Of a DNA stretch of 49,266 nucleotides, positions 808 through 34,805 are shown in pieces. Below the pieces are notes generated by a model. It made no database searches and was not told the DNA's origin. It worked only from the letters and a program-made list of their open reading frames with translations. The position numbers and the translations under genes were made by a program. Origin of the DNA: an uncultured bacterium (GTDB lineage Bacteria > Bacteroidota > Bacteroidia > Chitinophagales > CAIODY01); the NCBI GenBank assembly GCA_903857255.1, contig CAIODY010000052.1, forward strand, positions 1 to 49,266, read 5' to 3'. The stretch's first letter is position 1. The number at the start of each line of letters is the position of its first letter.

Positions 808-2133
808 ATGTTCGGAGTAAAACAAAAACTTACTGATTCAACTCTGTATTTATTACATGACATGATTGAATACAAGTTGCAAGAAACTGAAAATTTACTT
901 TCTCAATATTCAAACAATGAACCCGAAATAATAAACAACTTAAATAAACAGATTGATTACTACAAAAACGAATTGTCAGAATTCGAGAAAGATTTAGAAA
1001 TACAGCGTTCACAGATGTTCCAATTTTCAGTTGAAGAACTCTATTCAATGTATGGACAATTTGAAAATAGGTTTATTGAAGTTGAGTTTCATAAACTATC
1101 AGATTCTGCTAAAAAATTTGGAAGAACAATTAGTGGTACAATCATTTATTTCAAATCCGAACGTGAAAATTTAGAGCTAATTATTAAATCAGATTCAGTA
1201 CCGAGAACCAACGGGCTTGTAAGGTTTGAACCAACTTCATTCAATCCAAACGTTGAAAATGACATTAAAAATGAACTTCAAAATAATGGTTTTATGAGCG
1301 GTGATATTTTTCAAGTTCATCCAGTTAATATGCCGCCACTAAAAGCATTTAATCAAGAAGGTAAAAAAGAAATCCCGAATACAATTGCAATTAATATTAC
1401 TCCACCAAAAGACATTAATCCCAAAAGTATATGGATAGGGCTATTTAAACAAAGGCTTAGTAATGGGTATTTATTAATTGATGAAGAAATGAATAAACTT
1501 TGCGGCTATTCATTGTACTTTGAACCCAAATCTATCAATGCCGAGTTAATTAAACTGAATGCATTTAATGAAGATGGAAGTATAAAAAAGAATGTTCGGT
1601 TTTATGAATTGGATGCAAAATTAGATGAGTACAACCTTTCTCAAAACGAACTTTTAGAATATAGCAATTTACTAAATGAAAAAGTATTAGTTCGTAACGA
1701 ATTAATAAAGATTGAACTAAAGAGTTCAACAAATAAAACGCTCGAAAAATTTGCAGAGGAATATCCTCAAATATTTAAAGAGCTACAAAAACTTGTAATT
1801 AATTTTGATGATGAAGCATTAGAGTTTTATAAGACTATCCGACCCATTTATTGGGATTTCAAAAGCTATTTACATATTTACCTTAGGCACTGTGAAGAGT
1901 TACAATTAGAGGGTAACAACAAAACGAAAACAACATTCCAATATTCACAAAAAGAAATAAAACGCATTCTTAAAATTGCAATTGAAAAAATACACGAAAA
2001 AATCAATGATAGATTGTCGCAAAGCAAAGAATGTAGAATCTATGGCGACCGCTCTCTTTATTTTAATGGCAACTATTACGCAATCAATATTGATAAAGAT
2101 GGCAGAGTTGCTGCATTTCATCCCTACGAATAG
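808..2133 (+). CDS. Hypothetical protein with N-terminal coiled coil
   Basis: The product is a 441-residue soluble protein that I do not recognise. Residues about 20-70 (YKLQETENLL..., NNLNKQIDYYKNELSEFEKD) look like a coiled coil. The middle (about 90-260) has alternating hydrophobic strands, and the last third is helical. It closes with a short beta-rich tail containing RSLYFNGNYYAINIDKDG. There is no signal peptide, no membrane segment and no obvious catalytic motif. It starts 13 nt after the small membrane protein, so it likely shares the transcript of the Hsp70-like gene and may be a client or partner. ATG at 808 is the first start of the frame. Confidence 0.6.
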   Translation: MFGVKQKLTDSTLYLLHDMIEYKLQETENLLSQYSNNEPEIINNLNKQIDYYKNELSEFEKDLEIQRSQMFQFSVEELYSMYGQFENRFIEVEFHKLSDSAKKFGRTISGTIIYFKSERENLELIIKSDSVPRTNGLVRFEPTSFNPNVENDIKNELQNNGFMSGDIFQVHPVNMPPLKAFNQEGKKEIPNTIAINITPPKDINPKSIWIGLFKQRLSNGYLLIDEEMNKLCGYSLYFEPKSINAELIKLNAFNEDGSIKKNVRFYELDAKLDEYNLSQNELLEYSNLLNEKVLVRNELIKIELKSSTNKTLEKFAEEYPQIFKELQKLVINFDDEALEFYKTIRPIYWDFKSYLHIYLRHCEELQLEGNNKTKTTFQYSQKEIKRILKIAIEKIHEKINDRLSQSKECRIYGDRSLYFNGNYYAINIDKDGRVAAFHPYE

Positions 2134-2205
2134 GACCTCAATCATCCTAACAATTTTTCGTTGAAAAAATTTCAATCTTCCTGCCAAGCCCACTCAAAAT
2201 AAATC

Positions 2206-2213
2206 TACCTTTG
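2206..2213 (+). promoter_or_regulatory. Promoter -7 element TACCTTTG just before the DUF488 gene
   Basis: The octamer fits the Bacteroidota -7 consensus TAnnTTTG exactly. It lies only four bases ahead of the ATG at 2218, so transcription from it would start at or next to the start codon, giving a leaderless message or using a later start (ATG at 2248). No clear TTTG box is seen 19 nt upstream. Confidence 0.45.
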
Positions 2214-2217
2214 CATC

Positions 2218-3102
2218 ATGTTTTACCGCAGAAAAGTAATATTAGCAATGCTTCAATTATTTGATGGAAAATTGGACAAAATTAGTTTGCAAAAATTGCT
2301 TTTTCTATTCACTCAAAAGCAACAAAAAACCGAGTACGACTTTATCCCTTATCGCTTTGGGTGCTACTCTTACTCTGCAAATGCAGATATGACAGCAATG
2401 GTAAAACGTGGTTTTTTGTTGGAAGATGAAAAACATTTTGAAAAAAAAGACACAGCCGATTATTTAAAATTACTAAAGCCCGATGACAAAAAATATTTGT
2501 TAGAGGTCAAAAATAATTACGGTAAAATGAGTGCAAACGCATTGATGAAACACACTTACATCAATTATCCATTTTATGCCACACATAGCACCGTAGCAGC
2601 AAATATCTTAAACAAAGCCGAACTACAAAAAGTAGAAGATGCAAAACCAAAAAGCAACAAAACAATCTTGTTCACTATTGGTTATGAAGGCATTTCTTTA
2701 GAGGAATATTTAGTTCGCTTGTTAAAAAACGATGTCAAAGTTTTGGTGGATGTGCGTAACAATCCATTCAGCATGAAATATGGCTTTAACAAAAACCAAC
2801 TTAAAAAATACTGCGATAATTTAGGCATTCAATACTTGCATTTTCCCGAAGTAGGCATTCAATCCGAACAACGACAAGAATTAAATGCACAAACTGACTA
2901 TGATAAATTGTTTGCCATATACCGCAAAACCAATTTAACAAAAACCACCAAAACACAAGTTGAAATTCTGAACTTATTAAAAGAACATAAACGCATTGCC
3001 CTTACTTGTTTCGAGGCAAATATTTGTCAATGCCATCGCAAACATTTAGCCGAAGCAATTACTTCTTTGCCAAACTTTTCCTATGAATTAAAACACATCT
3101 AA
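2218..3102 (+). CDS. DUF488 protein with an N-terminal Panacea/DUF4065-like domain
   Basis: The product is 294 residues in two parts. Residues 1-135 are helical: SLQKLLFLFTQ near 23 and YDFIPYRFGCYS near 40 recall the Panacea (DUF4065/SocA-like) fold, in which a conserved K(L)LF helix is followed by an aromatic loop. Residues 149-283 are a clear DUF488 domain: FTIGYEG at 152, DVRNNP at 178, and CFEANICQCHR at 264-274, the Cys/His cluster that ends DUF488 proteins. DUF488 has no settled biochemical role. The next gene starts one base after the stop, so the two products probably work together. An exact -7 promoter element precedes it. Two-gene units of this kind sit in accessory DNA; a role in defence or stress is only a guess. 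Confidence 0.75.
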   Translation: MFYRRKVILAMLQLFDGKLDKISLQKLLFLFTQKQQKTEYDFIPYRFGCYSYSANADMTAMVKRGFLLEDEKHFEKKDTADYLKLLKPDDKKYLLEVKNNYGKMSANALMKHTYINYPFYATHSTVAANILNKAELQKVEDAKPKSNKTILFTIGYEGISLEEYLVRLLKNDVKVLVDVRNNPFSMKYGFNKNQLKKYCDNLGIQYLHFPEVGIQSEQRQELNAQTDYDKLFAIYRKTNLTKTTKTQVEILNLLKEHKRIALTCFEANICQCHRKHLAEAITSLPNFSYELKHI

Positions 3103-3103
3103 A

Positions 3104-3931
3104 ATGGCTCGGAAGAAAGTATTAATCACAGTTACAACCTATCCTTTACCATCTCGAAGCTATGATGAATTAGTTTGCACCGCAGGTGTCTTAGAAAATG
3201 GCGAGTGGATTCGTATTTATCCAGTGCCGTTAAGTTTCTTACTCGACTTGAAAGGAACAGGCAAAGTGAATAACGTAAAATATACTTGGATTGAATTAGA
3301 GTTGAACCGAAGAACGGAGGATTTCAGACCTGAAAGTTTTTCTCCAAAGCATTATGATTTTAGAGATTTAGAAATTGGTAAACGATTAGACACTGAAAGT
3401 AATTGGGCAAGCAGAAAAGAAATTTGCCTCACCAATGTTTACACCAACAAAGCCAAACTGCTAAAAGATTCAGAAGCACCAACGAATGTTTCATTAGCCA
3501 CATTCAAACCTTCAAAGATTGTTGGTTTTAAAATTGAGAACGATGCACGGGAATGGAAAAATGAATGGTTAGAATTGCGTAAGCAAGGCGATTTGTTTAG
3601 TGGTGATAAATCACCCGAAATGTTAATTCCGAAATTGCCGTTCAAATTTTCTTATACTTTTTTAGATGATGAAGGAGTGTCAAGCACACTTATGATTGAA
3701 GATTGGGAAATAGGAGCTTTGTATTGGAATTGCTTGAGAGGTGCAGATGGAAACGAAGATATAGCTCTGGAAAAAGTAAGAGAGCAATACGAACATAACT
3801 TCACGAAGGAAAAAGATATTTACCTGTTTCTTGGCACAACAAAAGAGTGGCATATGCGTCGAGCAACCAATCCTTTTGTAATCATTGGGGTTTTCTATCC
3901 CAAAAAAGAAGTACAAGCCAAACTATTCTAA
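3104..3931 (+). CDS. Conserved partner of the DUF488 gene, function unknown
   Basis: The product is 275 residues, soluble, starting at an ATG one base after the stop of the DUF488 gene, which implies coupled translation. The N-terminus is striking: a beta strand KVLITVTTYPLPS, then SYDELVCTAGV and GEWIRIYPVPL, suggesting a small beta domain that binds a ligand or nucleic acid. The C-terminus has LFLGTTKEWHMR and NPFVIIGVFYP, again strand-rich. I do not recognise a named domain but believe this protein is recurrently found next to DUF488 genes. No membrane segments. Downstream comes about 560 bp without a gene, holding repeats. Confidence 0.65.
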   Translation: MARKKVLITVTTYPLPSRSYDELVCTAGVLENGEWIRIYPVPLSFLLDLKGTGKVNNVKYTWIELELNRRTEDFRPESFSPKHYDFRDLEIGKRLDTESNWASRKEICLTNVYTNKAKLLKDSEAPTNVSLATFKPSKIVGFKIENDAREWKNEWLELRKQGDLFSGDKSPEMLIPKLPFKFSYTFLDDEGVSSTLMIEDWEIGALYWNCLRGADGNEDIALEKVREQYEHNFTKEKDIYLFLGTTKEWHMRRATNPFVIIGVFYPKKEVQAKLF

Positions 3932-4036
3932 CACCTAATTACTTCCAGTAATATCCCCATTTTCTTTGCCTCTTTGCATGCCACCACCACCAAACAAGCC
4001 ACCAGCCTAACTCATAAGCTGATTGTCTTTAATAAT

Positions 4037-4300
4037 CACCTCAATAACTCGGCTGCAAACCTCACTGAACAGGTTACAATCGTCACTGACGAGGTTACAA
4101 TGAACGCTGTCGAGGCTGCAATCGTCGCTGAATAGGTTGCGGACACCGCTGTCATGGATACAATGGCAGTTGTCATGGACACAGTGGCAGATGACGAGGC
4201 TGCGGACAACACTGTCGAGGCTGCGGACATCGCTGTCACGACCGAAGTCGTCGCTGTCATCACCGAAATGAACGCTGTCATGGCTACGGAAATCAACAAC
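4037..4300. repeat. Degenerate tandem array with a 21-nt period (about 12 units)
   Basis: Reading in 21-base steps, units line up as variations of NNNNNCGCTGTCGAGGCTGCG; for example 4100-4120, 4142-4162 and 4205-4225 share most positions. In the forward frame each unit is seven codons (MNAVEAA, DTAVMDT, DNTVEAA, DIAVTTE, VVAVITE), a heptad pattern like a coiled coil. The frame is broken by TAG at 4133 and has no good start, so it looks like a decayed coding array or a non-coding repeat. It lies alone between the DUF488 unit and a long hairpin. Not CRISPR: the units are contiguous, with no spacers. Confidence 0.75.
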
Positions 4301-4337
4301 ATAAAAATGAAGTTCGGTGGTAATTCAGCACAGCACA

Positions 4338-4404
4338 TTAGCACACACATTTAGCAGGCGCAAAGCCCACCGCCAAAACCAAGCCTGCTAAAAGAGTGTG
4401 CTAA
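4338..4404. repeat. Long imperfect hairpin (22-bp arms)
   Basis: Left arm 4338-4359 (starting TTAGCACAC, ending TTAGCAGGC) and right arm 4383-4404 pair over 22 bases with three mismatches, separated by a 23-base C/A-rich loop. The stem is far longer than a normal terminator and has no U-tract. It sits 85 bases before element E1, so it may belong to the same family of mobile or cassette-boundary repeats. I see no gene in 4301-4489. Confidence 0.7.
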
Positions 4405-4489
4405 TCTTTGCCAACGCTTCTGCGACCTTTTCGGGCTTCGTTTCATCACAGGTTATCACTTGACGGGACACACCCATAAGACTTTCACA

Positions 4490-4625
4490 GCCGATAACAC
4501 GGGGCTTTTGCAAAGGCGGCAGACGGGTTTCATTTAAGTTTTGTAGTTTCTATTAAATGTTATCTTTGCGACAAGTGACGGACTTCTAATCCGCCTCTGC
4601 AAAAAGCCCCGAGAACGTTGGCGGC
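4490..4625 (+). repeat. Element E1: attC-like inverted-repeat element at the head of the WG-repeat gene
   Basis: The left arm begins GCCGATAAC and continues with GGGGCTTTTGCAAAGGCGG (4501-4519). The right arm is CCGCCTCTGCAAAAAGCCCC (4591-4610) followed by GAGAAC and GTTGGCGGC (4617-4625). The arms pair with small bulges and a ~70-base centre. E1 and E3 (34673-34805) share 23 identical bases at their right ends (4605-4627 and 34785-34807). The layout, two outer boxes of GCCAAC/GTTGGC type, asymmetric inner arms and a variable loop, is that of integron attC sites, but GTTGGCG departs from the GTTRRRY consensus. An internal promoter lies at 4540-4568. Confidence 0.65.
4540..4568 (+). promoter_or_regulatory. 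Bacteroidota promoter inside element E1
   Basis: TTTG at 4540-4543 and TATCTTTG at 4561-4568 (an exact TAnnTTTG) are separated by 17 bases, close to the usual 19. It points out of the element toward the WG-repeat gene, with a predicted start near 4575 and about 90 nt of leader formed mostly by the right arm of E1. Confidence 0.6.
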
Positions 4626-4665
4626 AACCCATGACAACCAGCAGACGACCTCAAACAAACAGACA

Positions 4666-6261
4666 ATGAAAACAAGACAATCTCACTTCTTTGCTCTACT
4701 TTTTTTCATAAGTACAACTTCGTTTTTAAATCTGAATTGTAATGCACAAACGACACCAAAACCTATTCCTTCATTTACACCAGAGTATTACAGACTATTA
4801 AAATTAGAAAATCAACCACAACCCCAAAAAAAAGATGGTAAATATGGTTATGTTATTTACCCGTCAAAAAAAGTTGTTATCCCTTACATTTATAAAGATG
4901 CAAGCAAATTTAACAACGGTTTTGCAATCGTAAAAAATGACACAGGCGCAGGAGTTATCAATATCAAAGGTGAAATTGTTATCCCTTTTAATTATACTCA
5001 AGTTGGATATTTCAACCAAGGCTTGTTTATTGCTCAGAAAGGATTAAAACATTGGGGTATAATTGATAGTAGCAATAAAACTGTTATTCCCTTTGAGTAT
5101 GAGGAAATTCAATCCCTGCCCAATCGAATGATTGCTGCAAAAAAGAATGGTAATTTAGGACTGATTTCAATTTCCAACAATGTCATTCTTCCCTTTGATT
5201 ATTTTGGCATTCGTGAAATTGCTGATTCAATTTATGAATTGACATGCAATGGAAACTACGGCAAACATGGTTTCTTCTTTTTCAATTCCAAAATAAAATT
5301 GGATTGCATTTATACATCCCATCCTGATTTTAATTTTAAACCGACAGGTATTGAATCAGAAAATAAAAGAGGAATTATTGATAAACGTGGTAATTTTTTA
5401 TTTCCACTCACTAAAAATGTAACATTCTTGGTTGATGATGATTTTAGAATTATGATTACTGACAAACACAAGTTTATCCGATTAAGCAGTAAATGGCAAT
5501 TAGGTGATACACTTGATATTGACAGTATCCGAAGTGTTTCTTATGGGCAAATAAAAGTTCGAAAAAATAATAAATGGGGGATTATTAATACCACAGGCAA
5601 GTGGTTGATTCCCATAAAATTTGATGGTATAGAACGTATAATTAACGGAAGAGTTGCTGTGAAAATAAATGACAAATGGGGATTTGCCGATACAATTGGT
5701 AATATAATCATTCCAGCCAACTATCAAAAAGTTGAAGATTTTTATGAAATGAGAAGTGGCTTTACTGGGTTGGCAGTTGTACAACAAAACAATAAATGGG
5801 GTATAATTGATAAACAAAATAAAGTAATTACTCCAATAATTTATGACCATTTGAGTACAATACATAACACAGGTATTTTCACATTGGTAATGCAAAATGG
5901 TCTTTATGGATTTCTTGGCACACAGGGTAAAGAAGTTTTTCCTTGTATTGAAAAAGAGTTGTTTTTTCCAATGACTAAATTAACTCCCATTCAACAAAGT
6001 GGGAAATGGGGATACACTAATTCAAATAAAGACATCGTTATTCCATGTATCTATGACGAAGTAAGCGATTACAATACCTCTGGCACACGAGTAAAATGCA
6101 AAGGGAAGTGGGGATTTGTTGATGGCTTTTTAAAAACGCAAATTGACTTTACTTTTGATGAAGCTGAAGATTTCAAGAAAATAGGCGAAGGCATTTTTGC
6201 AAAAGTAAAAAAAGGTAATGAAACTTATTTTGTTGACCCACAAGGGAACAAATACAAGTAA
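4666..6261 (+). CDS. Exported WG-repeat protein
   Basis: From the ATG at 4666 the product is 531 residues. It opens with MKTRQ and a hydrophobic stretch ending LNLNCNAQ, a Sec signal peptide (cleavage probably after NA or at the Cys). The rest is about eleven WG repeats (KYGYV, HWGIID, KRGIID, KWGIIN, KWGFAD, KWGIID, LYGFLG, KWGYTN, KWGFVD), each with a following I/VIP-x-YD block. WG repeats form beta propeller-like surfaces and are usually linked to envelope binding roles; the partner is unknown. An upstream in-frame TTG at 4618 lies inside element E1 and is unlikely to be used. The gene is framed by E1 and the broken copy E2, like a cassette. Confidence 0.8.
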   Translation: MKTRQSHFFALLFFISTTSFLNLNCNAQTTPKPIPSFTPEYYRLLKLENQPQPQKKDGKYGYVIYPSKKVVIPYIYKDASKFNNGFAIVKNDTGAGVINIKGEIVIPFNYTQVGYFNQGLFIAQKGLKHWGIIDSSNKTVIPFEYEEIQSLPNRMIAAKKNGNLGLISISNNVILPFDYFGIREIADSIYELTCNGNYGKHGFFFFNSKIKLDCIYTSHPDFNFKPTGIESENKRGIIDKRGNFLFPLTKNVTFLVDDDFRIMITDKHKFIRLSSKWQLGDTLDIDSIRSVSYGQIKVRKNNKWGIINTTGKWLIPIKFDGIERIINGRVAVKINDKWGFADTIGNIIIPANYQKVEDFYEMRSGFTGLAVVQQNNKWGIIDKQNKVITPIIYDHLSTIHNTGIFTLVMQNGLYGFLGTQGKEVFPCIEKELFFPMTKLTPIQQSGKWGYTNSNKDIVIPCIYDEVSDYNTSGTRVKCKGKWGFVDGFLKTQIDFTFDEAEDFKKIGEGIFAKVKKGNETYFVDPQGNKYK

Positions 6262-6324
6262 AACATTCATCAAGCCGACTATGCAGACAAGTTAGACCGC
6301 TTAAACCTTTGACGAGCAAACTCT

Positions 6325-6567
6325 CTTGACAACGGAGCTAACTCAAACAAAGGACGAGATAGCTAAAACAACAATCGAGATAGCTGTTCAGTCATTGAAG
6401 ATAACAAAACCAAAGGTCAAGACAATAAAACCAAGACCAAAGTATGCAGTGTTGTCATACGAGCAAGCACAATTGTCAGCCAAGACAACGCCGCAGACGT
6501 TGAAGACAACAGAAATAAAGGACGAGATAACAAAAACATGGGACAAGACAACAAAACCAAAAACTGG
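6325..6567. repeat. Second degenerate 21-nt-period array after the WG-repeat gene
   Basis: Blocks such as 6400-6420 and 6421-6441, then 6505-6525, 6526-6546 and 6547-6567, are 21 bases apart and share the pattern GAYAACAAAACCAARGNNNA. In one frame they read as heptads (DNKTKGQ, DNKTKTK, DNRNKGR, DNKNMGQ, DNKTKNW). That frame holds a stop and has no clear start, so I do not call a gene. The array ends directly at element E2. Its composition differs from the array at 4037-4300 but its period and placement are the same. Confidence 0.6.
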
Positions 6568-6570
6568 GCA

Positions 6571-6640
6571 GCCGCCAACACGGGGCTACTGTTACAGCGG
6601 CTTGACGAGCAATTTGAAAGTTCGGTTGTTTCGGTTACGC
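6571..6640 (+). repeat. Element E2: left half of an attC-like element, truncated
   Basis: It begins GCCGCCAAC, then CGGGGCTACTGTTACAGCGG and a loop starting CTTGACGAGCAATTTG. Over about 60 bases it matches the left half of E3 (34681-34741) with only a few differences, but no right arm follows: the sequence runs into unrelated DNA and the end of the TonB receptor gene. The position that is a -7 element in E3 (TACTTTTG) reads TACGCTTC here, so the promoter is also lost. Confidence 0.7.
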
Positions 6641-6700
6641 TTCGATTGTTTTGACGAGCAATCAAAACAACTGATTTTAATCTATTGTTGTTAAATAAAA

Positions 6701-9004
6701 TTAAAAAGTATAGTTAAAGCCTAAAGCTGGCAAAATTGGCAACTGATTAATTCGTTGGGATGTAACTCTATCGAAGTAAAAAATATTTTCACGGTTCAAT
6801 ACATTGGTTATACTAAAGTTAGCTTCCAATAAGCCACGTTTGCCCACATAAAATTTTCGTTTGATAGAAAAATCAACACGATGATAATTGGGTAATCTAC
6901 CTTGATTTAAAAGTGCATCGTATTTAATGCCTAAATCACCTGACTGGTTGATATAATTGGCAGTTACACCATCAGCAAAATTAAATTTTTCGTAGTATCC
7001 TTGAGTTTGTGTAAATGGAAATCCTGTTCCGAAATTGTAGCGAATGCTGGTTTCCCAATTCAAATTTTTGCCAAAAGTATAAGCAGATAATAAGTTCAAA
7101 TTGTGTCGTCTATCAAACGATGGTTGGTAGTAATATTTGCTACCATCAGCATTTAAAGTACCATCAAATCTGTTGGTGTAAGCCAATGAATAACCAGCCC
7201 AAAAATAAAATCTTTTATAATCGTATTTCGCTAAAAAATCAATACCATAAGCATTACCAGTTTCAACAATAAAATTGGGGTCAGAGTTATAAATTTTATC
7301 TCTGTTCAAATTAATCAGTTGCGTAAAATCTTTATAATAAGTTTCAGCAGTTAACTCAATATTTTTAATCACGTCATATTCTACACCAGCCACAGCATGC
7401 CAAGCTTTTTGCAACTTTGAATCGGCAATTTGCCCATTGGTATTTCTGATGTCTTCTTCGGGTCCTGATAAAAAACCTGTAAATAAATTCACTACATCTC
7501 TATCGCTTTTGGTGCTGATTAAATTTTGAGAATATCTACCAGCAGCAAATTTGAATCGAACATTCGAGGTAGCGTTGTACTTCATATCAAATCGAGGTTC
7601 AACTGATGCTGCATTGAGTGTGGCATAATATGGCAATCTTAAACCTGGTTCAATAATGAATTTGCCAATCACTTTTTTGTATTTAGCGTAGCCTGCTAAT
7701 TCAGTAGTGCTTTGGTCGAAACCATCACCATATTCAGTGCCCAAAGCATTATAAAATGTGTAGGTAGTTTTGTAATTATTTAGTTCAATACCATAATTAA
7801 AATTGCTATAATTTTCGAGCATGTAACCAAAATCAATTTTCATAGTGAAGCCGCCAATGGTGCTTGTACGTGGCAATCCATCACTTTCAGTTAAAGTTAA
7901 GCCATATTGCGAACCGCTTACTTGCCCACTAATTAATGTGGTTGCGCCAGCAGGAGAAATTACGAAATTAGCACCCATGCCATACGAAGTCCAACCGTAT
8001 TTTAATTTGCCTTGATAGTTGGCATTATCTGAAAAGTCGAACCCAAATAAATTTAGTTTACTACCACTGTTTGAATTGAAAGAAAGTTTGGCATAAATAT
8101 CTGTAAAGTTATATTGCAAACCATGTCCGGCAGTATCAGCATACTTATAAAATATGGGTGCTGATTTATCTAAGTAACTTGATTTGGCTGTGATGAGAAA
8201 TGATGAGCTGCCACTATTATTATCTGTCATTTTTTTTAATGGACCTTCCAATAAAACTTTACCTGCAAAAGTATTGGCAGAAATTTTTCCACTCAATCTT
8301 TTTCTGTTACCGTCACGAGTTGTTACATCAATCACGGCTGATGTTGCGCCGCCATCTTCGGCGTTGAAACCAGCAGTTTTAACATCGGCATTCTTCATGA
8401 TGTCGGTTTCAAAAACTGAAAACAAACCAATTGAATGAAACGGATTGTAGATGGTCATTCCATCTAACGTGATTTTGTTTTGAATGGGCGAACCACCACG
8501 AATATAAAGCTGACCGCCTTGGTCGCCACTACTAACCACACCTGGAACAATTTGTAAGTATTGCGCTAAATCAGGCTCACCACCCACTGATGGCAACTGC
8601 TTAATTTGAGTAGGCGAAACCTGAAACGTACTTACTTGTGTATTGGTCATTCGTTCCATTTTTCTGCCTGTAACTTTTACACCACGAAGCTGACGCGATT
8701 TTTTGGCGATGGAAAGTTTTACATTTAAAATATCATCAGCTTTCAATTGTATTTTTTGCGAACTACTATCATAGCCTAATGCAAAAGCAGTGATAGTATA
8801 TTCGCCAATAGGCACTTTTTTGATAGAGAAAAATCCATTCACATCAGTTTGGTTGCCATAAGTAGTGCCTGCTAACACAACATTTACAAAGATAGCAGGT
8901 TCGCCAGTTTCATGGTCGTAAACAAATCCTTTAATATCAGTGGTGGTAGTTTGCCCAAAAGCAAAAGATGAAATCAATAATAAAAATGGTAGAAATTTTT
9001 TCAT
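6701..9004 (-). CDS. TonB-dependent outer-membrane receptor
   Basis: The product is 767 residues. Signal peptide MKKFLPFLLLISSFAFGQ is followed by a CarboxypepD_reg-like beta-sandwich (about 22-105; DHETGEPAIFVNVVLAGT), a plug domain (about 125-235; PGVVSSGDQGGQLYIRGGSP, DGMTIYNPFH) and a 22-strand-type barrel ending in a terminal Phe (LPALGFNYTF). This is the usual Bacteroidota receptor for energised uptake of siderophores, glycans, vitamins or peptides across the outer membrane. There is no SusD-like partner beside it, so a polysaccharide locus is not indicated and the substrate cannot be named. A near-consensus -7 element (TACATTCG) lies about 21 bp before the start on the minus strand. 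Confidence 0.93.
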   Translation of the reverse strand: MKKFLPFLLLISSFAFGQTTTTDIKGFVYDHETGEPAIFVNVVLAGTTYGNQTDVNGFFSIKKVPIGEYTITAFALGYDSSSQKIQLKADDILNVKLSIAKKSRQLRGVKVTGRKMERMTNTQVSTFQVSPTQIKQLPSVGGEPDLAQYLQIVPGVVSSGDQGGQLYIRGGSPIQNKITLDGMTIYNPFHSIGLFSVFETDIMKNADVKTAGFNAEDGGATSAVIDVTTRDGNRKRLSGKISANTFAGKVLLEGPLKKMTDNNSGSSSFLITAKSSYLDKSAPIFYKYADTAGHGLQYNFTDIYAKLSFNSNSGSKLNLFGFDFSDNANYQGKLKYGWTSYGMGANFVISPAGATTLISGQVSGSQYGLTLTESDGLPRTSTIGGFTMKIDFGYMLENYSNFNYGIELNNYKTTYTFYNALGTEYGDGFDQSTTELAGYAKYKKVIGKFIIEPGLRLPYYATLNAASVEPRFDMKYNATSNVRFKFAAGRYSQNLISTKSDRDVVNLFTGFLSGPEEDIRNTNGQIADSKLQKAWHAVAGVEYDVIKNIELTAETYYKDFTQLINLNRDKIYNSDPNFIVETGNAYGIDFLAKYDYKRFYFWAGYSLAYTNRFDGTLNADGSKYYYQPSFDRRHNLNLLSAYTFGKNLNWETSIRYNFGTGFPFTQTQGYYEKFNFADGVTANYINQSGDLGIKYDALLNQGRLPNYHRVDFSIKRKFYVGKRGLLEANFSITNVLNRENIFYFDRVTSQRINQLPILPALGFNYTF

Positions 9005-9142
9005 TTAAATTTATAAAATTGGCAACGAATGTAATAGATTTTTTTGAAGACGAATACAATGATTGATAGCAACTATTGTATGACGAAAAATGATGCAAAA
9101 AGGTTGCAATCAACAATCATTTTTTTTCAACCAACCAAGAAA

Positions 9143-9634
9143 TTAATTTTGATTGAAGTAATATTTATTTTCATGGAGCGAATCGGTGATAATATTTTCT
9201 TGCAAGCCCAATTCTTTTTCGGTGAGTTTCAAAATGATATAATCATGACGAATGCCGCTTAATACTGGTTGAGGCAAATCGTTGTCATTCACATATTCTT
9301 CATTGAAAATTACATCCGTTTTTTTATCGTTTAATTGCCATTTACCATTTACCTGAACAATATGAGTAGAGCCATTTTGAGGCATATAACTTTCGGTATG
9401 AATATTCATCGTACCATCTTTATTAATATTGAATTGATAAGTAGAATAAGGTTGCATAAAGGCAGTAGTCCTATCTATTCCATCGCGGAAATATTGCACC
9501 AATTTCCAGTTCTGATGCAAACGTGCTGCTTTTGAACGCAAACTAAAATAAGGACCCTCGGGATATTTTTTGCAAGAAAAAAAAGGTGCCGAACAACCTA
9601 TAACTATCAGCAATAAAATGATTTTTATTTTCAC
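9143..9634 (-). CDS. Lipocalin-like small lipoprotein
   Basis: The product is 163 residues from a GTG start. A hydrophobic N-terminus ends in the lipobox-like FFSCKK at about 18-23, so it is probably lipid-anchored. The mature part has W-x-L followed by a run of predicted strands (KLVQYF, YQFNINKDGTMNI, GKWQLNDKKTDVIF, YIILKLTEKEL), the layout of the small lipocalin-like families common in Bacteroidota. The ligand is unknown. It stands alone between the TonB receptor and the rhomboid gene, same strand, with 138 bp to the receptor. Confidence 0.65.
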   Translation of the reverse strand: MKIKIILLLIVIGCSAPFFSCKKYPEGPYFSLRSKAARLHQNWKLVQYFRDGIDRTTAFMQPYSTYQFNINKDGTMNIHTESYMPQNGSTHIVQVNGKWQLNDKKTDVIFNEEYVNDNDLPQPVLSGIRHDYIILKLTEKELGLQENIITDSLHENKYYFNQN

Positions 9635-9783
9635 GTTGATAAAGGTAAGAAAAAAAATTATTTTTTCAATTTTACGCTATTAAATTAGTTGGTAAATTGA
9701 CACCAGAAAAGACAACCGCAAAACGCACGATACAAATACTTTTAAACCCAACTAAAGTTAAGTTGATGGTTATGGAAAGTTGT

Positions 9784-10638
9784 TTAATAAAACTTCTTCC
9801 GATTATTTTTTTGCCAAAAATAAAGCAGAATAAAACCAAACAACATGCCGCCTAAATGCGCTAAGTGAGCAATATTATCGCCTGGTGTGCTGCGCCAAGC
9901 CGAGTAAAATTCGTAAGCCCCCATCAACGCAACAATATATTTTGCACGTAAAGGAATCAAGAAATAAACATAGATTAATGTGTTGGGAAACAGATAGCCA
10001 TAAGCGAATAAAATTCCGAAAACAGCTCCCGAAGCACCAATCATCACATCCGAAAAACGTTCATCTAAATTAGCTAAGTTGCTGCTATATTCCGCTACTA
10101 AACTTTTGATATTATTGCCTAACTGCACATTATCAGGATGCAATAGCCATTGCTGAATATAATCTTTGTTCAATGAAATTAGGTTTCTGAAATCCATTAA
10201 ATGTTGCGATGCAATAAAAGTATTCAAGCTGGTTGGTGTTGGCGAATTTAAAAACACTTGCGCTGCTTGTTGCACATGATAAAATGTCCAGTAATTAGCC
10301 GCCAGATTGCATATTGCAGCCCCAATGCCCGTGAAAAAATAAAATACCAAAAAGCGTTTTAAGCCCCAATAATTTTCGAGCACACTGCCAAACATCCAAA
10401 AGCTAATCATGTTGAACAACACATGGTCAAATGAAGCATGCATGAACATATAAGTTACAAATTGCCAAATTTTGAAATGGTGATTCAACGGAAAGTATAA
10501 ACCCAAAATATTCGCCAACTCAATATTATAAACTGATTGAAAAGTGTAGGTGGCTAAATATAAAATGCCATTGATGATTAAAATATTTTTAACTGCTAAT
10601 GGCAGCATACTAAATTGCTGCGGACGATATTCGTTCAT
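9784..10638 (-). CDS. Rhomboid-family intramembrane serine protease
   Basis: The product is 284 residues with six or seven membrane helices. The catalytic serine is in GASG (Ser203) and the partner histidine in AHLAHLGG (His261). The HASFDHVLFNM segment (67-77) carries the conserved His and Asn near the oxyanion site. It cleaves transmembrane proteins within the bilayer. Unusual is the long soluble stretch of about 80 residues (about 118-195) between the helix after the HxxxxHxxxN region and the GxSG helix; it is rich in Asn, Gln and Leu. It lies 19 bp upstream of nothing else in the operon sense but follows the HCDH-like gene on the same strand with a 19-bp gap. Confidence 0.88.
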   Translation of the reverse strand: MNEYRPQQFSMLPLAVKNILIINGILYLATYTFQSVYNIELANILGLYFPLNHHFKIWQFVTYMFMHASFDHVLFNMISFWMFGSVLENYWGLKRFLVFYFFTGIGAAICNLAANYWTFYHVQQAAQVFLNSPTPTSLNTFIASQHLMDFRNLISLNKDYIQQWLLHPDNVQLGNNIKSLVAEYSSNLANLDERFSDVMIGASGAVFGILFAYGYLFPNTLIYVYFLIPLRAKYIVALMGAYEFYSAWRSTPGDNIAHLAHLGGMLFGFILLYFWQKNNRKKFY

Positions 10639-10657
10639 TTTTTTTCGGGAACTATTT

Positions 10658-11332
10658 TTATAGTGATTCTAAATATTGAGTTTTTAACAACGGACAAATT
10701 TTATAACGCTCTTCCAAAGTATCATGGTACAAGGCGTTGAGCGTTTCATAAACATTTGTAATGCCAATTTGTTCCATCCATTCAAACGGACCAAAAGGAT
10801 AATTGGTGCCTAATCGCATGGCTAAATTAATATCGGTTTTGTTGGCTGTGCCTTCTTGCAAAGTGTAAAATGCTTCATTAATTATCATACAAATCACTCG
10901 TGGAGTAACCAACCCTACTCGGTCTTTTACAAATTCAGTTTGCCAATTTAGTTTTTCAAAACACTTTAAAACTATTGATTTATCAGCCTCTTTCAGCAAT
11001 GCTAATTCAGCAATCGGTTTATTGATAAACGTTGGCAATGCATTGATGCCAATAAAAAATGAGTTGGAATTTTTAAGCATGGCATAAAATTGATGCAAGG
11101 CAACAGTTACTGAATTCAACACCACAATTCGGTTTTGCAATTGCGAATAAGTTTGAATGCTCGATTCATCGCCATTAAAATTCAAATCAAAAATCATTTC
11201 AAACCTGTTCAAAAATTCAACACTCAAACCTTCATCGGGTTGAACAAATTCGAGCGTCAAATCAGCTACAGCAGCTGTTTTATCTTTTAATTCTTTACCT
11301 CGTTGACTATCAGCAACAACTAAAATTTTCAT
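10658..11332 (-). CDS. 3-hydroxyacyl-CoA dehydrogenase C-domain-like protein without a canonical NAD motif
   Basis: From the ATG at 11332 the product is 224 residues. The C-terminal half (about 130-220) is a recognisable 3HCDH helical domain: DRVGLVTPRVICMIINEAF, then LGTNYPFGPFEWMEQIG. The N-terminal half begins with a strand (KILVVADSQ) but lacks the GxGxxG dinucleotide motif, and the protein is shorter than the usual ~290-residue FadB/HBD enzymes. It may therefore be a degenerate or non-catalytic relative. Placed between the rhomboid gene and the T9SS cargo gene on the same strand with 19- and 25-bp gaps, so all three may share a transcript. Confidence 0.7.
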   Translation of the reverse strand: MKILVVADSQRGKELKDKTAAVADLTLEFVQPDEGLSVEFLNRFEMIFDLNFNGDESSIQTYSQLQNRIVVLNSVTVALHQFYAMLKNSNSFFIGINALPTFINKPIAELALLKEADKSIVLKCFEKLNWQTEFVKDRVGLVTPRVICMIINEAFYTLQEGTANKTDINLAMRLGTNYPFGPFEWMEQIGITNVYETLNALYHDTLEERYKICPLLKTQYLESL

Positions 11333-11357
11333 TTGCAAATTTAATTCTTCAAAAAAA

Positions 11358-14072
11358 TTATTTACTCAATTCAATAAAACCAGTTAATGGTTTTGGCGTT
11401 TTTGTAACACCGCTCACTCTTAATTCGTACAAGTAACAAACATAGTAAAATGTACCTGTTGAAAGCTCTTTGTGGCTGTTGCCATCTTTGCCATCCCAAT
11501 TAATCATAGGGTCAGTAGTTTCAAAAACTTTATCGCCCCAACGATTAAAAATTTTCATATCCACATGGTCGATAAAACGAAAAGGTAAAAACGGGTGATA
11601 CACATCATTATGCCCGTCAGCATTGGGTGTGAAAGCATTTGGCAACACATACACCGGGCAATTATCCATGCAAACTACATTACTTGGTTTGCTTTCGTTG
11701 CCGGCTGAATCAATAGAAGTGATGTAATAACAACCTGCCACCGAACCATGATAATTATGTTGATAGGTAATCATTGTAGCTGGTGCAACACTATCAATTT
11801 TGTGCAACACTAATGAATCGGTTGGGGCATAATAAATGTAGTATTTATTTACATCGGTGATGCCGCATTGTACATCAGGATTGAGCCAGGATAAGTGATT
11901 AACAATATTGTCTGTTGATGAGGGTGAAGTTGAATTTTCACAATCGTTGTGAATAGTTAATTGTGTAGCGCAAGGAGGCGTTGTATCAATGGTTGTGGCA
12001 CAAACTTGTTGCGATAAATTGTAAGTGAAAGCAGTGATATGTGGCGATGTAAAATGCCCTGTGCTTTTCACATAATAACAATAATTCGAGTCGTTGATTA
12101 AATGCCAATCCGTAAAAAAATGATTAGTGGTAATAGCGATAGAATCATAATGCCCAGTTGATTTATTCAATTTGAAAATAGCAAATGAATCATTTAACCA
12201 AGGCACAGTTTCATTCCAATGTAAAGTAACTTTTTTATTTCCACCATAAGCATTCAAAAAGATGGTGGAAGCTGGGTCACTTGTTCCTAAAGTATCTGTA
12301 AAGCTATTTGTGTAGAATTTTACTTTGTAAAAATGTTGCAGATTTTTGGTGTCGATATTGGTTTGAATAAAAGACGAATCAGCCAAATTTCTGATTAAAT
12401 AAAAAGCATTAAAAGTTTTAGTGTTAATCAAATTGTTGATGCTGGCTACATTGCTGCCTTCATACAATTCAAATTTGTAAGTAGGTGGATGCAATGTTGT
12501 ATCTAAATCAACAAAATATGGTTTTACCCAACGAATGAAATTAGCACCAGTAGCGGCATTGGTGGTGTTCACACTGGCATTAAATAGCACAGGCAAATCT
12601 TCTTTCATTAAAATACAAGCCTGATTTGATGGTGCACCGCTAAAAGGATTATAAGGTTGATGACTCGGTGAATATTCGCTGAATTCAGCCACCACTCTAT
12701 AGCTATAAACTTGTCCTTGCCCAACATTGTAATCATCATAAAAATAATTTAACACATTGCTGGCAATTCGAGTGTAAGCAGTGCCATCTAATCCTTGCTG
12801 ACAACTATCAATAATTAAACTATCGCAACCGATTTTTCGCCATACGGAATATGAATTGAAGGTAGGTGCACTAGCGCATGAATAAGGATTTTGCCATGTA
12901 ATATGCACGTGTTTTTGCACTTGTACTGCAGCAACATTTTTGGGTGGTGGTGGAATCAAATAGATTCGCCAAGTTAAATTATCATTCAATGAATTGTAGC
13001 TGCAGCTACCATCGCCAGGCAGTGAATCAACTGCTTTGAAAATTACTTCGTAAAACTGCGGACGTAAATCATTACAATCAGTTTGCCACACAAAATTTCC
13101 AGATACATTTAATGAAGGCAAAGTAGTAACAAAACTTGCAGGATTCACCACCGCATTGCTGAAAGGCGCACCATTAGCCGTTAAATTCAGCAACTGCCCA
13201 GCATCTTGGTCTTGCGCCACAACTGTTTGAGTGATGACATCACCAGCCCAAACACATTTATCAGGTATGTTAGAGATTGCAGGCGGATGATTAGGGTTGC
13301 AGGTTACAATGATTTGCATATCTCTCATTGTTTTGCCTAATTTAACTACATGCCCATTTATTAATCTTCTGTATTCGTACACATAAAAAGCAATGTTATA
13401 AGTACAACAATTAGCTGTCGGTGTCCATCTAATTTCTCCAGTAATTTTATCCATAGTTAATCCAGATGGAAAACCATACAAAGCAGCTGCCAATTGCGAA
13501 TCACAACCTGTATGCGGTGTTTCTAATTCAAAATCTAAACTATCGCCATCTACATCAAAAGCATTTGGATTGTAACGAAACACATAACCCGGATGAGCAA
13601 ACGTGATGGGTGAATTTAAAAACACCACACTGTTGTTGTAAGGCAAAAATTGTGGGTCAGGTACATCAATTTCTGTTTCGATAGAGAATTCAACATTCAC
13701 TGAATTGTAGATGTTGCAAATGTAAGCAGTTCTATTTTTGTCGCTCATGCACAATAAAAAATTACCCGGCCCTGGGTAAGTATGTTGAGCAATGTATTTA
13801 TTTTCAATTATCGAATCGCAAATATTTATCGAGTCGTGTTTTAAAATAGTTGATGAAGTGCCATCACCCCAATTCAAATCTAAAGCATGACGGATGGCAA
13901 TCGTACCTGGCGGATAGTTGTTCGGATTTTTATTATAAACAGTAATGGTTACTTCGTAAGTGTTGTTAATGACATGCGTATAAGTGATTTCACCAGCCCG
14001 ATTATGCGTAGCATAAAGCAGTTGCGAACAACACAATAAAAAAACAAAAGGAAGAATTATGAAACGGCGCAT
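11358..14072 (-). CDS. Large secreted protein with T9SS type B (gliding-motility) C-terminal sorting domain
   Basis: From the ATG at 14072 the product is 904 residues: MRRFIILPFVFLLCC...LLYATHN is a Sec signal peptide. The body contains several beta-sandwich modules (fibronectin/Ig-like; for example RYNPNAFDVDGDSLDFEL near 170 recalls cadherin-like folds). The end is a typical gliding-motility-associated CTD: LPNAFTPNADGHNDVYHP, IFNRWGDKVFET, NWDGKDGN, STGTFYYVCYL. This tag is recognised by the type IX secretion system and delivers the protein to the surface or outside. A longer TTG-started frame adds seven residues but would spoil the signal peptide. Probably an adhesin-type surface protein; its ligand is unknown. 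Confidence 0.9.
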   Translation of the reverse strand: MRRFIILPFVFLLCCSQLLYATHNRAGEITYTHVINNTYEVTITVYNKNPNNYPPGTIAIRHALDLNWGDGTSSTILKHDSINICDSIIENKYIAQHTYPGPGNFLLCMSDKNRTAYICNIYNSVNVEFSIETEIDVPDPQFLPYNNSVVFLNSPITFAHPGYVFRYNPNAFDVDGDSLDFELETPHTGCDSQLAAALYGFPSGLTMDKITGEIRWTPTANCCTYNIAFYVYEYRRLINGHVVKLGKTMRDMQIIVTCNPNHPPAISNIPDKCVWAGDVITQTVVAQDQDAGQLLNLTANGAPFSNAVVNPASFVTTLPSLNVSGNFVWQTDCNDLRPQFYEVIFKAVDSLPGDGSCSYNSLNDNLTWRIYLIPPPPKNVAAVQVQKHVHITWQNPYSCASAPTFNSYSVWRKIGCDSLIIDSCQQGLDGTAYTRIASNVLNYFYDDYNVGQGQVYSYRVVAEFSEYSPSHQPYNPFSGAPSNQACILMKEDLPVLFNASVNTTNAATGANFIRWVKPYFVDLDTTLHPPTYKFELYEGSNVASINNLINTKTFNAFYLIRNLADSSFIQTNIDTKNLQHFYKVKFYTNSFTDTLGTSDPASTIFLNAYGGNKKVTLHWNETVPWLNDSFAIFKLNKSTGHYDSIAITTNHFFTDWHLINDSNYCYYVKSTGHFTSPHITAFTYNLSQQVCATTIDTTPPCATQLTIHNDCENSTSPSSTDNIVNHLSWLNPDVQCGITDVNKYYIYYAPTDSLVLHKIDSVAPATMITYQHNYHGSVAGCYYITSIDSAGNESKPSNVVCMDNCPVYVLPNAFTPNADGHNDVYHPFLPFRFIDHVDMKIFNRWGDKVFETTDPMINWDGKDGNSHKELSTGTFYYVCYLYELRVSGVTKTPKPLTGFIELSK

Positions 14073-18309: not shown

Positions 18310-18382
18310 TCTGGGTGAGAAGACTCGAACTTCCGACCTCTTGCACCCCATACAAGTACGCTACCAACTGCGCCACACCCAG
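18310..18382 (-). tRNA. tRNA-Pro (GGG)
   Basis: On the minus strand the acceptor CTGGGTG (from 18382) pairs with CACCCAG (ending 18311), with discriminator A at 18310 and no encoded CCA. The D-arm reads GCGCAGTTGGTAGCG. The anticodon stem CTTGT/GCAAG encloses loop ATGGGGT, giving anticodon GGG. The T-loop is TTCGAGT. C1 with A73 is typical of proline tRNA. Confidence 0.92.
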
Positions 18383-28946: not shown

Positions 28947-29021
28947 GGCGCCGTAGTACAATGGATAGTATAAGAGTTTCCGAAGCTCCAGATTCAGGTT
29001 CGATTCCTGACGGTGCCACCA
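28947..29021 (+). tRNA. tRNA-Arg (CCG), CCA encoded
   Basis: Acceptor GGCGCCG (28947-28953) pairs with CGGTGCC (29011-29017), discriminator A at 29018 and CCA at 29019-29021. The D-arm region is GTACAATGGATAGTAT. The anticodon loop TTCCGAA carries CCG, flanked by AGAGT and GCTCC. T-arm is CAGGTTCGATTCCTG. Probably the insertion site of the element whose recombinase remnant lies next to it. Confidence 0.92.
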
Positions 29022-34644: not shown

Positions 34645-34672
34645 TTGACTATGTTATAAGTATGTTTTAAGA

Positions 34673-34805
34673 GCCAACCCAGGGCTACTGTTACAGCGCT
34701 TGACGAGCAATTTGAAGGTTCGGTTGTTTCTTTTACTTTTGTTTTCGTGGGACAGCGGACGGCACACTAAACCGCTGCAACTGTAGCCCCGAGAACGTTG
34801 GCGGC
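34673..34805 (+). repeat. Element E3: complete attC-like inverted-repeat element
   Basis: The left arm has GCCAAC (34673-34678) and GGGCTACTGTTACAGCG (34682-34698). The right arm has CGCTGCAACTGTAGCCCC (34773-34790), GAGAAC and GTTGGCGGC (34797-34805). The outer boxes and inner arms are complementary; the loop is about 74 bases. The right 23 bases equal those of E1, and the left half equals E2. A perfect promoter sits in its loop. It starts 29 bp after dnaE stops. The DNA beyond it has no convincing gene. Confidence 0.7.
34711..34741 (+). promoter_or_regulatory. Perfect Bacteroidota promoter inside element E3
   Basis: TTTG at 34711-34714, 19 bases, TACTTTTG at 34734-34741. This matches TTTG-N19-TAnnTTTG fully and points out of the element to the right, into a stretch without a good gene. 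Confidence 0.75.

Follow-up and report, generated by a model that had tools for sequence, protein, structure and literature searches.

The gap between dnaE and rpoB in the DNA analysed here (a window of 49,266 nucleotides, the whole stretch under study, from an uncultured member of the Bacteroidota) holds a hairpin element, E3, with a promoter-like sequence in its loop. What kind of element is E3, and could its loop drive expression of the DNA that follows such a site? We consider it very probable that E3 serves as an attC-like recombination site in a system of gene cassettes that resembles an integron and occurs across Bacteroidota, a joint reading that takes in the mechanism below and a loop promoter in this genus. 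The element would fold as a single-strand hairpin, an IntI-related tyrosine recombinase without the IntI-specific insert would carry out exchange at the GTT of the right-hand core, and single-ORF cassettes would exit and enter as circles. In the genome of the window the arrays stand without a detectable platform recombinase, as in CALINs. At many sites of the genus an outward TTTG/TAnnTTTG promoter in the loop would start transcription within the site, downstream of the left arm, and expression of each following cassette would need no platform promoter. Because a start in the loop excludes the left arm, the mRNA would lack the full hairpin, a predicted benefit.

The element family and its members in the window

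BLAST and covariance searches recovered 15 full copies of the element in the genome of the window (G000, here the own genome), plus partial ones. Covariance model R1, built from 8 own-genome copies, matches the family in 23 of 100 relatives, and model R2, built from 30 diverse copies, matches 66 of 100 relatives and 142 of 296 genomes sampled across the phylum. As is characteristic of canonical attC sites, the hairpin is conserved in structure and variable in sequence: 83.5% of cells are paired, compared with 31.8-43.2% in slid structures, and both-sided changes occur in 19 of 25 hairpin pairs. RNAalifold on the diverse set recovered part of the stem only, owing to misalignment, so the final structure was drawn up manually on the basis of column pairing. 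An arm of the element carries a conserved mismatch. Conservation is complete or nearly so in YAAC-A on the left side and in C-GTT(R) on the right; in the essential triplets these match the attC cores. The full attC core consensus is scarce (RYYYAAC in 6/79 copies, GTTRRRY in 7/76), and what is general is YAAC and GTT(R) alone. The coordinates of the elements in the window are given in Table 1.

Table 1. Positions of the attC-like elements, their parts and the WG-repeat cassette in the window
Feature	Position	Strand	Evidence
E3, full attC-like element, ~138 nt	34668..34805	+	R1 151 bits, R2 95 bits
E3 R''-type core CAAC	34675..34678	+	YAAC in 79/79 family copies scored
E3 L''-type arm	34682..34698	+	covarying helix 2, 91% of cells paired
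E3 loop promoter-like sequence TTTG-N19-TACTTTTG, toward R'	34711..34741	+	
E3 L'-type arm	34772..34790	+	covarying hairpin structure
E3 R'-type core GTT, putative crossover site	34797..34799	+	GTT then R in 74/76 copies scored
E1, full attC-like element before WG-repeat cassette	4488..4625	+	R2 115 bits
E1 loop promoter-like sequence TTTG-N17-TATCTTTG	4540..4568	+	
WG-repeat cassette core, after G of E1's GTT to AAC of E2	4618..6579	+	end bases complementary 5/5
WG-repeat protein gene (cassette ORF)	4663..6261	+	Pfam PF14903, 189 bits
E2, attC-like element, 5' half only, cut off in loop	6569..6640	+	

E3 is alone in its gap and lies 24 bp downstream of the dnaE stop codon. Behind it there is no convincing cassette gene (the ORFs there reach at most 73 aa), and a partner start for its own R'' is not present within about 4.9 kb. 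No clean empty site for E3 was found: the dnaE and rpoB matches in the related genome G001 lie on separate contigs, and the stretches read have no element beside either. In its present state, E3 is best regarded as a stray site that no gene follows. The crossover point inferred for E3 is supported by the orthologue of E1. At the homologous locus in G002, E1 and its upstream DNA are held in common and divergence begins at GTT, which is where integron-type exchange would cut.

Several further observations concern the copies and their surroundings. Incomplete copies occur in G000 and G001 (E2 in the window; L016:1035-1084; L017:3159-3214; L018:8548-8686; L226-L231), and several of those in G001 have a shared piece of ~56 nt joined to the loop, with the same loop end position after GGTTGTTTC. 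This common endpoint suggests a second recurrent breakpoint. The A6 element loops (e.g. L043:330-467, L046) have internal repeats, with NGTG motifs every 18-19 or 36-37 nt in many copies. Upstream of E1, a stretch of ~100 nt (window 4330-4430; C90 of G002, locus L159) is near-identical between G000 and G002, while its flanks are ~77% identical; it holds nested inverted repeats, TTAGCACAC...GTGTGCTAA enclosing TTTAGCAGGC...GCCTGCTAAA, and is possibly another hairpin element. At the Rfam gathering threshold the sole matches in the window are tRNAs, and its two tRNA genes lie at 28947-29018 (+) and 18310-18382 (-).

Promoter-like sequences in the loops

The original prediction held that the loop of E3 carries a perfect TTTG-N19-TAnnTTTG promoter pointing outward and that E1 has one with N17 in the same relative place. 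The E3 string is present as described. The E1 string is likewise in the loop, although its place agrees approximately only, being about 9 nt deeper than that of E3. Taken singly, such an occurrence means little, since the string is near chance in the window: TTTG-N17-21-TAnnTTTG occurs 9 times on both strands, compared with an expectation of 5.2, and a count of 9 is reached in 8 of 100 shuffles. A sigma70 scan of the E3 region gave no match on the + strand.

Across copies, the perfect outward motif is found in 8 of 15 own-genome copies and in 4/4 distinct sampled copies from the genus, which as homologues are not independent, and in 0/69 copies from other genera; shuffled loops give 0.3-1.3%. 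It is this repeated occurrence in one position and one orientation that goes beyond chance. Both Bacteroidota promoter boxes at a spacing of 17-21 nt are present in E3, E1 and 10 further distinct genus copies. In other genera, 9 of 10 motif positions match in 12% of copies, compared with 5.6% in shuffles. By the refuting condition set with the proposal, an absence of box conservation among other copies, the loop sequence fails outside the genus as a property of the whole element family; it is a genus-level addition. What survives of the proposal is that the element bounds cassettes in a system like an integron and that, in many copies of this genus, it has a Bacteroidota-type promoter sequence facing the next cassette.

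Within the genus, function is on balance the better supposition: the loop motif probably acts as a promoter, though by a modest preference. It is also quite possible that the motif has no transcriptional role and is there incidentally, as T-rich DNA of the loop that homologous copies have inherited. Such an origin would agree with its being missing in other genera, with the near-chance count in the window and with the even conservation of the loop: within the genus the difference between box columns and the other loop columns (0.88 vs 0.80, p=0.16) is not significant. It is harder to reconcile with the reverse strand of the loops, which never carries the motif, and with five own-genome types, 62-74% identical, that keep 9-10 of 10 matches at spacings of 17-19 while its position shifts slightly, E1 being among those shifted. 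The own-genome copies at C81:1664, C81:3512 and on C6 score just 6-7 of 10. At 26-38% divergence, a lineage would keep 9 of 10 matches by chance with a probability of 10-26%, and the box columns are not significantly more conserved than the other loop columns, so it is the match to the consensus that argues for promoter function.

If the motif acts as a promoter, its position in the loop may matter for the transcript. Predicted folding at E3 is -23 kcal/mol for a loop-start transcript and -55 kcal/mol for the full one, the two stretches being of unequal length, and attC stem-loops are reported to hinder translation (PMC8876359). Expression independent of a shared promoter had been described as unlike classical integrons, which was too strong: cassette-borne promoters are known there, in cmlA1 and in a V. 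rotiferianus array (PMC8876359), and cassettes, including ORF-less Treponema cassettes, are expressed without Pc (PMC8876359, PMC6557892).

Cassette arrays and the associated recombinase

Contig C81 of the own genome is a case in point: nine elements form an array that spans 1664 to 13733, and each of its first six intervals has one forward ORF. Across 27 sampled loci, neighbouring elements are co-oriented in all 56 intervals (56/56), and the longest ORF is forward in 51 of the 54 intervals that have an ORF of at least 60 aa, with one ORF per interval. The median gap from element to element is 738 bp; the cassette ORF starts a median of 45 nt after R' and stops 16 nt ahead of the next R''. Just ahead of the first C81 element lies a gene for a PtuA/AriA-like AAA ATPase, a Septu/PARIS-type defence gene (L015:308-1657; PADLOC 112 bits).

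In an integron, the bases that follow GTT belong to the next cassette, and it is the circular cassette's own start that pairs with its own end. In these arrays, perfect five-base pairing joins the cassette end to its own start in 36 of 48 cases and to the adjacent start in 3 of 48, with a mean of 4.63 of 5 pairs within the same cassette and 2.46 of 5 with the in-array neighbour. Shuffles gave 2.26 +/- 0.15, and none of 2000 shuffles reached the observed mean. The WG-repeat cassette of the window passes the same test, and so does a class 1 integron cassette used as a control, whose end GTCTAAC exactly complements its start GTTAGAC. We take this pairing as the signature of circular cassettes that would be exchanged at GTT.

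Searches of the own genome, a 134-contig assembly, found XerC, XerD and three integrases of phage or transposon type, but neither IntI nor a recombinase of the cassette type. In relatives an IntI-like tyrosine recombinase is frequent. Five such proteins tested score 178-238 bits with TIGR02249, below its cut-off of 265, and 208-232 bits with the NCBI model XerA_Arch. The SPLD tail is common to the cassette recombinases and IntI. The IntI-specific insert of ~42 residues, near patch III, is missing from all 35 aligned recombinases and present in 8/8 IntI, and the distance from KGxKDR to LRHS is accordingly 74-79 residues in the former and 116 in the latter. A tree of 45 proteins places IntI beside or inside the cassette recombinases and XerC/D apart; the nesting of IntI inside them is tentative, Xer being represented by two rows on long branches.

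These recombinases lie close to the elements. Among 52 recombinase loci in relatives, 27 have elements within 10 kb, and 16 of the 25 loci without them have less than 600 bp of contig remaining downstream. The elements number 61, compared with 1.3 expected; 44 are downstream on the same strand, 15 upstream on the opposite strand and two placed otherwise. Co-occurrence by genome is moderate (elements in 40/51 with a recombinase vs 26/49 without, Fisher p=0.007), 11 recombinase-positive genomes having no detected elements. Relatives of the recombinase are also encoded on named plasmids of Rufibacter, Pontibacter, Chryseobacterium and Persicobacter. Small, mostly forward ORFs follow it in the first three (the Persicobacter record is unannotated), and R2 detects elements behind it in Chryseobacterium, in Persicobacter and also, though weakly, in Rufibacter. 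Plasmid arrays hold IS110-family transposases (L201:16272-20054; L202:14850-16205; L203:18935-19993), and L201 also has a group II intron; relatives of both kinds of element target attC sites.

It is improbable that the elements represent canonical attC sites belonging to ordinary integrons (CALINs) with an IntI elsewhere in the phylum. True IntI does score above the cut-off in 84 of the 296 phylum genomes sampled, and the cassette logic is identical. However, R2 has no match at the 12 strongest phylum IntI loci, at the IntI locus of genome G022 or in a class 1 array, the sites seldom agree with the full core consensus, and it is with insert-less recombinases that they cluster. The IntI of G022 lies at C40:3592-4530, and some genomes with IntI have R2 elements too, which seem to lie far from IntI or on different contigs. 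It is most improbable that the elements are ordinary repeats between genes (MITE/REP-like palindromes or terminators) in an incidental array, for although E3 is solitary between dnaE and rpoB and partial copies are scattered at many places in G000 and G001, strictly oriented intervals of one ORF each, cassette ends that match their own starts and clustering beside an IntI-related recombinase all speak against it, and the test of the cassette ends already contradicts it.

Novelty and relation to known systems

In the account of IntegronFinder 2.0 (PMC9024848), integrons are reported to be all but missing from Bacteroidetes, Salinibacter ruber M1 being the only member of Bacteroidetes proper with one, besides Chlorobi/Ignavibacteriae. 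A search of the open-access literature (subscription journals and preprints fall outside its scope) turned up no account of arrays of this kind with insert-less recombinases, nor of a promoter in a recombination-site loop that recurs along arrays; the novelty of the system is provisional. A large gene-exchange platform may have been overlooked because its recombinase lacks the feature by which integrons are found. If this recombinase acts on these hairpins, the IntI-specific domain would be unnecessary for hairpin recombination, which would bear on the origins of integrons. A promoter-bearing recombination site would release cassettes from the position effect, and a start inside the loop would keep the complete hairpin off the mRNA. 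We put forward only tentatively the wider proposal of a widespread, largely overlooked integron-like system of Bacteroidota, with a recombinase older than, or sister to, IntI and dating from before IntI acquired the insert; in some lineages each site would have become a promoter, every cassette being expressed.

On the present evidence the system is integron-like and not an integron in the strict sense. It has the co-oriented array of single-ORF cassettes by which integrons are strictly recognised, bounded by attC-like sites; we do not file it as an integron, since two features that were looked for, the IntI-specific domain and the full core consensus, are respectively absent and rare in it. 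It resembles a chromosomal (sedentary) integron in its hairpins with AAC...GTT cores, its co-oriented single-ORF cassettes, the circular-cassette signature at GTT and a tyrosine recombinase at one array end (here in relatives, none having been found in the own genome). It differs in having a recombinase without the IntI-specific insert, sites in which GTTRRRY and RYYYAAC are seldom present, an unequal core-arm spacer (about 1 nt left, 5 right) and a length held tightly at ~138 nt. The own-genome arrays without a platform recombinase are like CALINs, attC clusters lacking an integron integrase, but the sites are not canonical attC. The cassette recombinases share a fold family with XerA, XerC and XerD, whereas the tree groups them with IntI, apart from the host XerC/D. 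Like the cassette-borne promoters (PcmlA, V. rotiferianus, Treponema), the loops would allow cassettes to be expressed without Pc, here from a promoter-like sequence; unlike those promoters, each of which belongs to one cassette, this sequence is part of the recombination site, lying in its loop, and is found again at one site after another.
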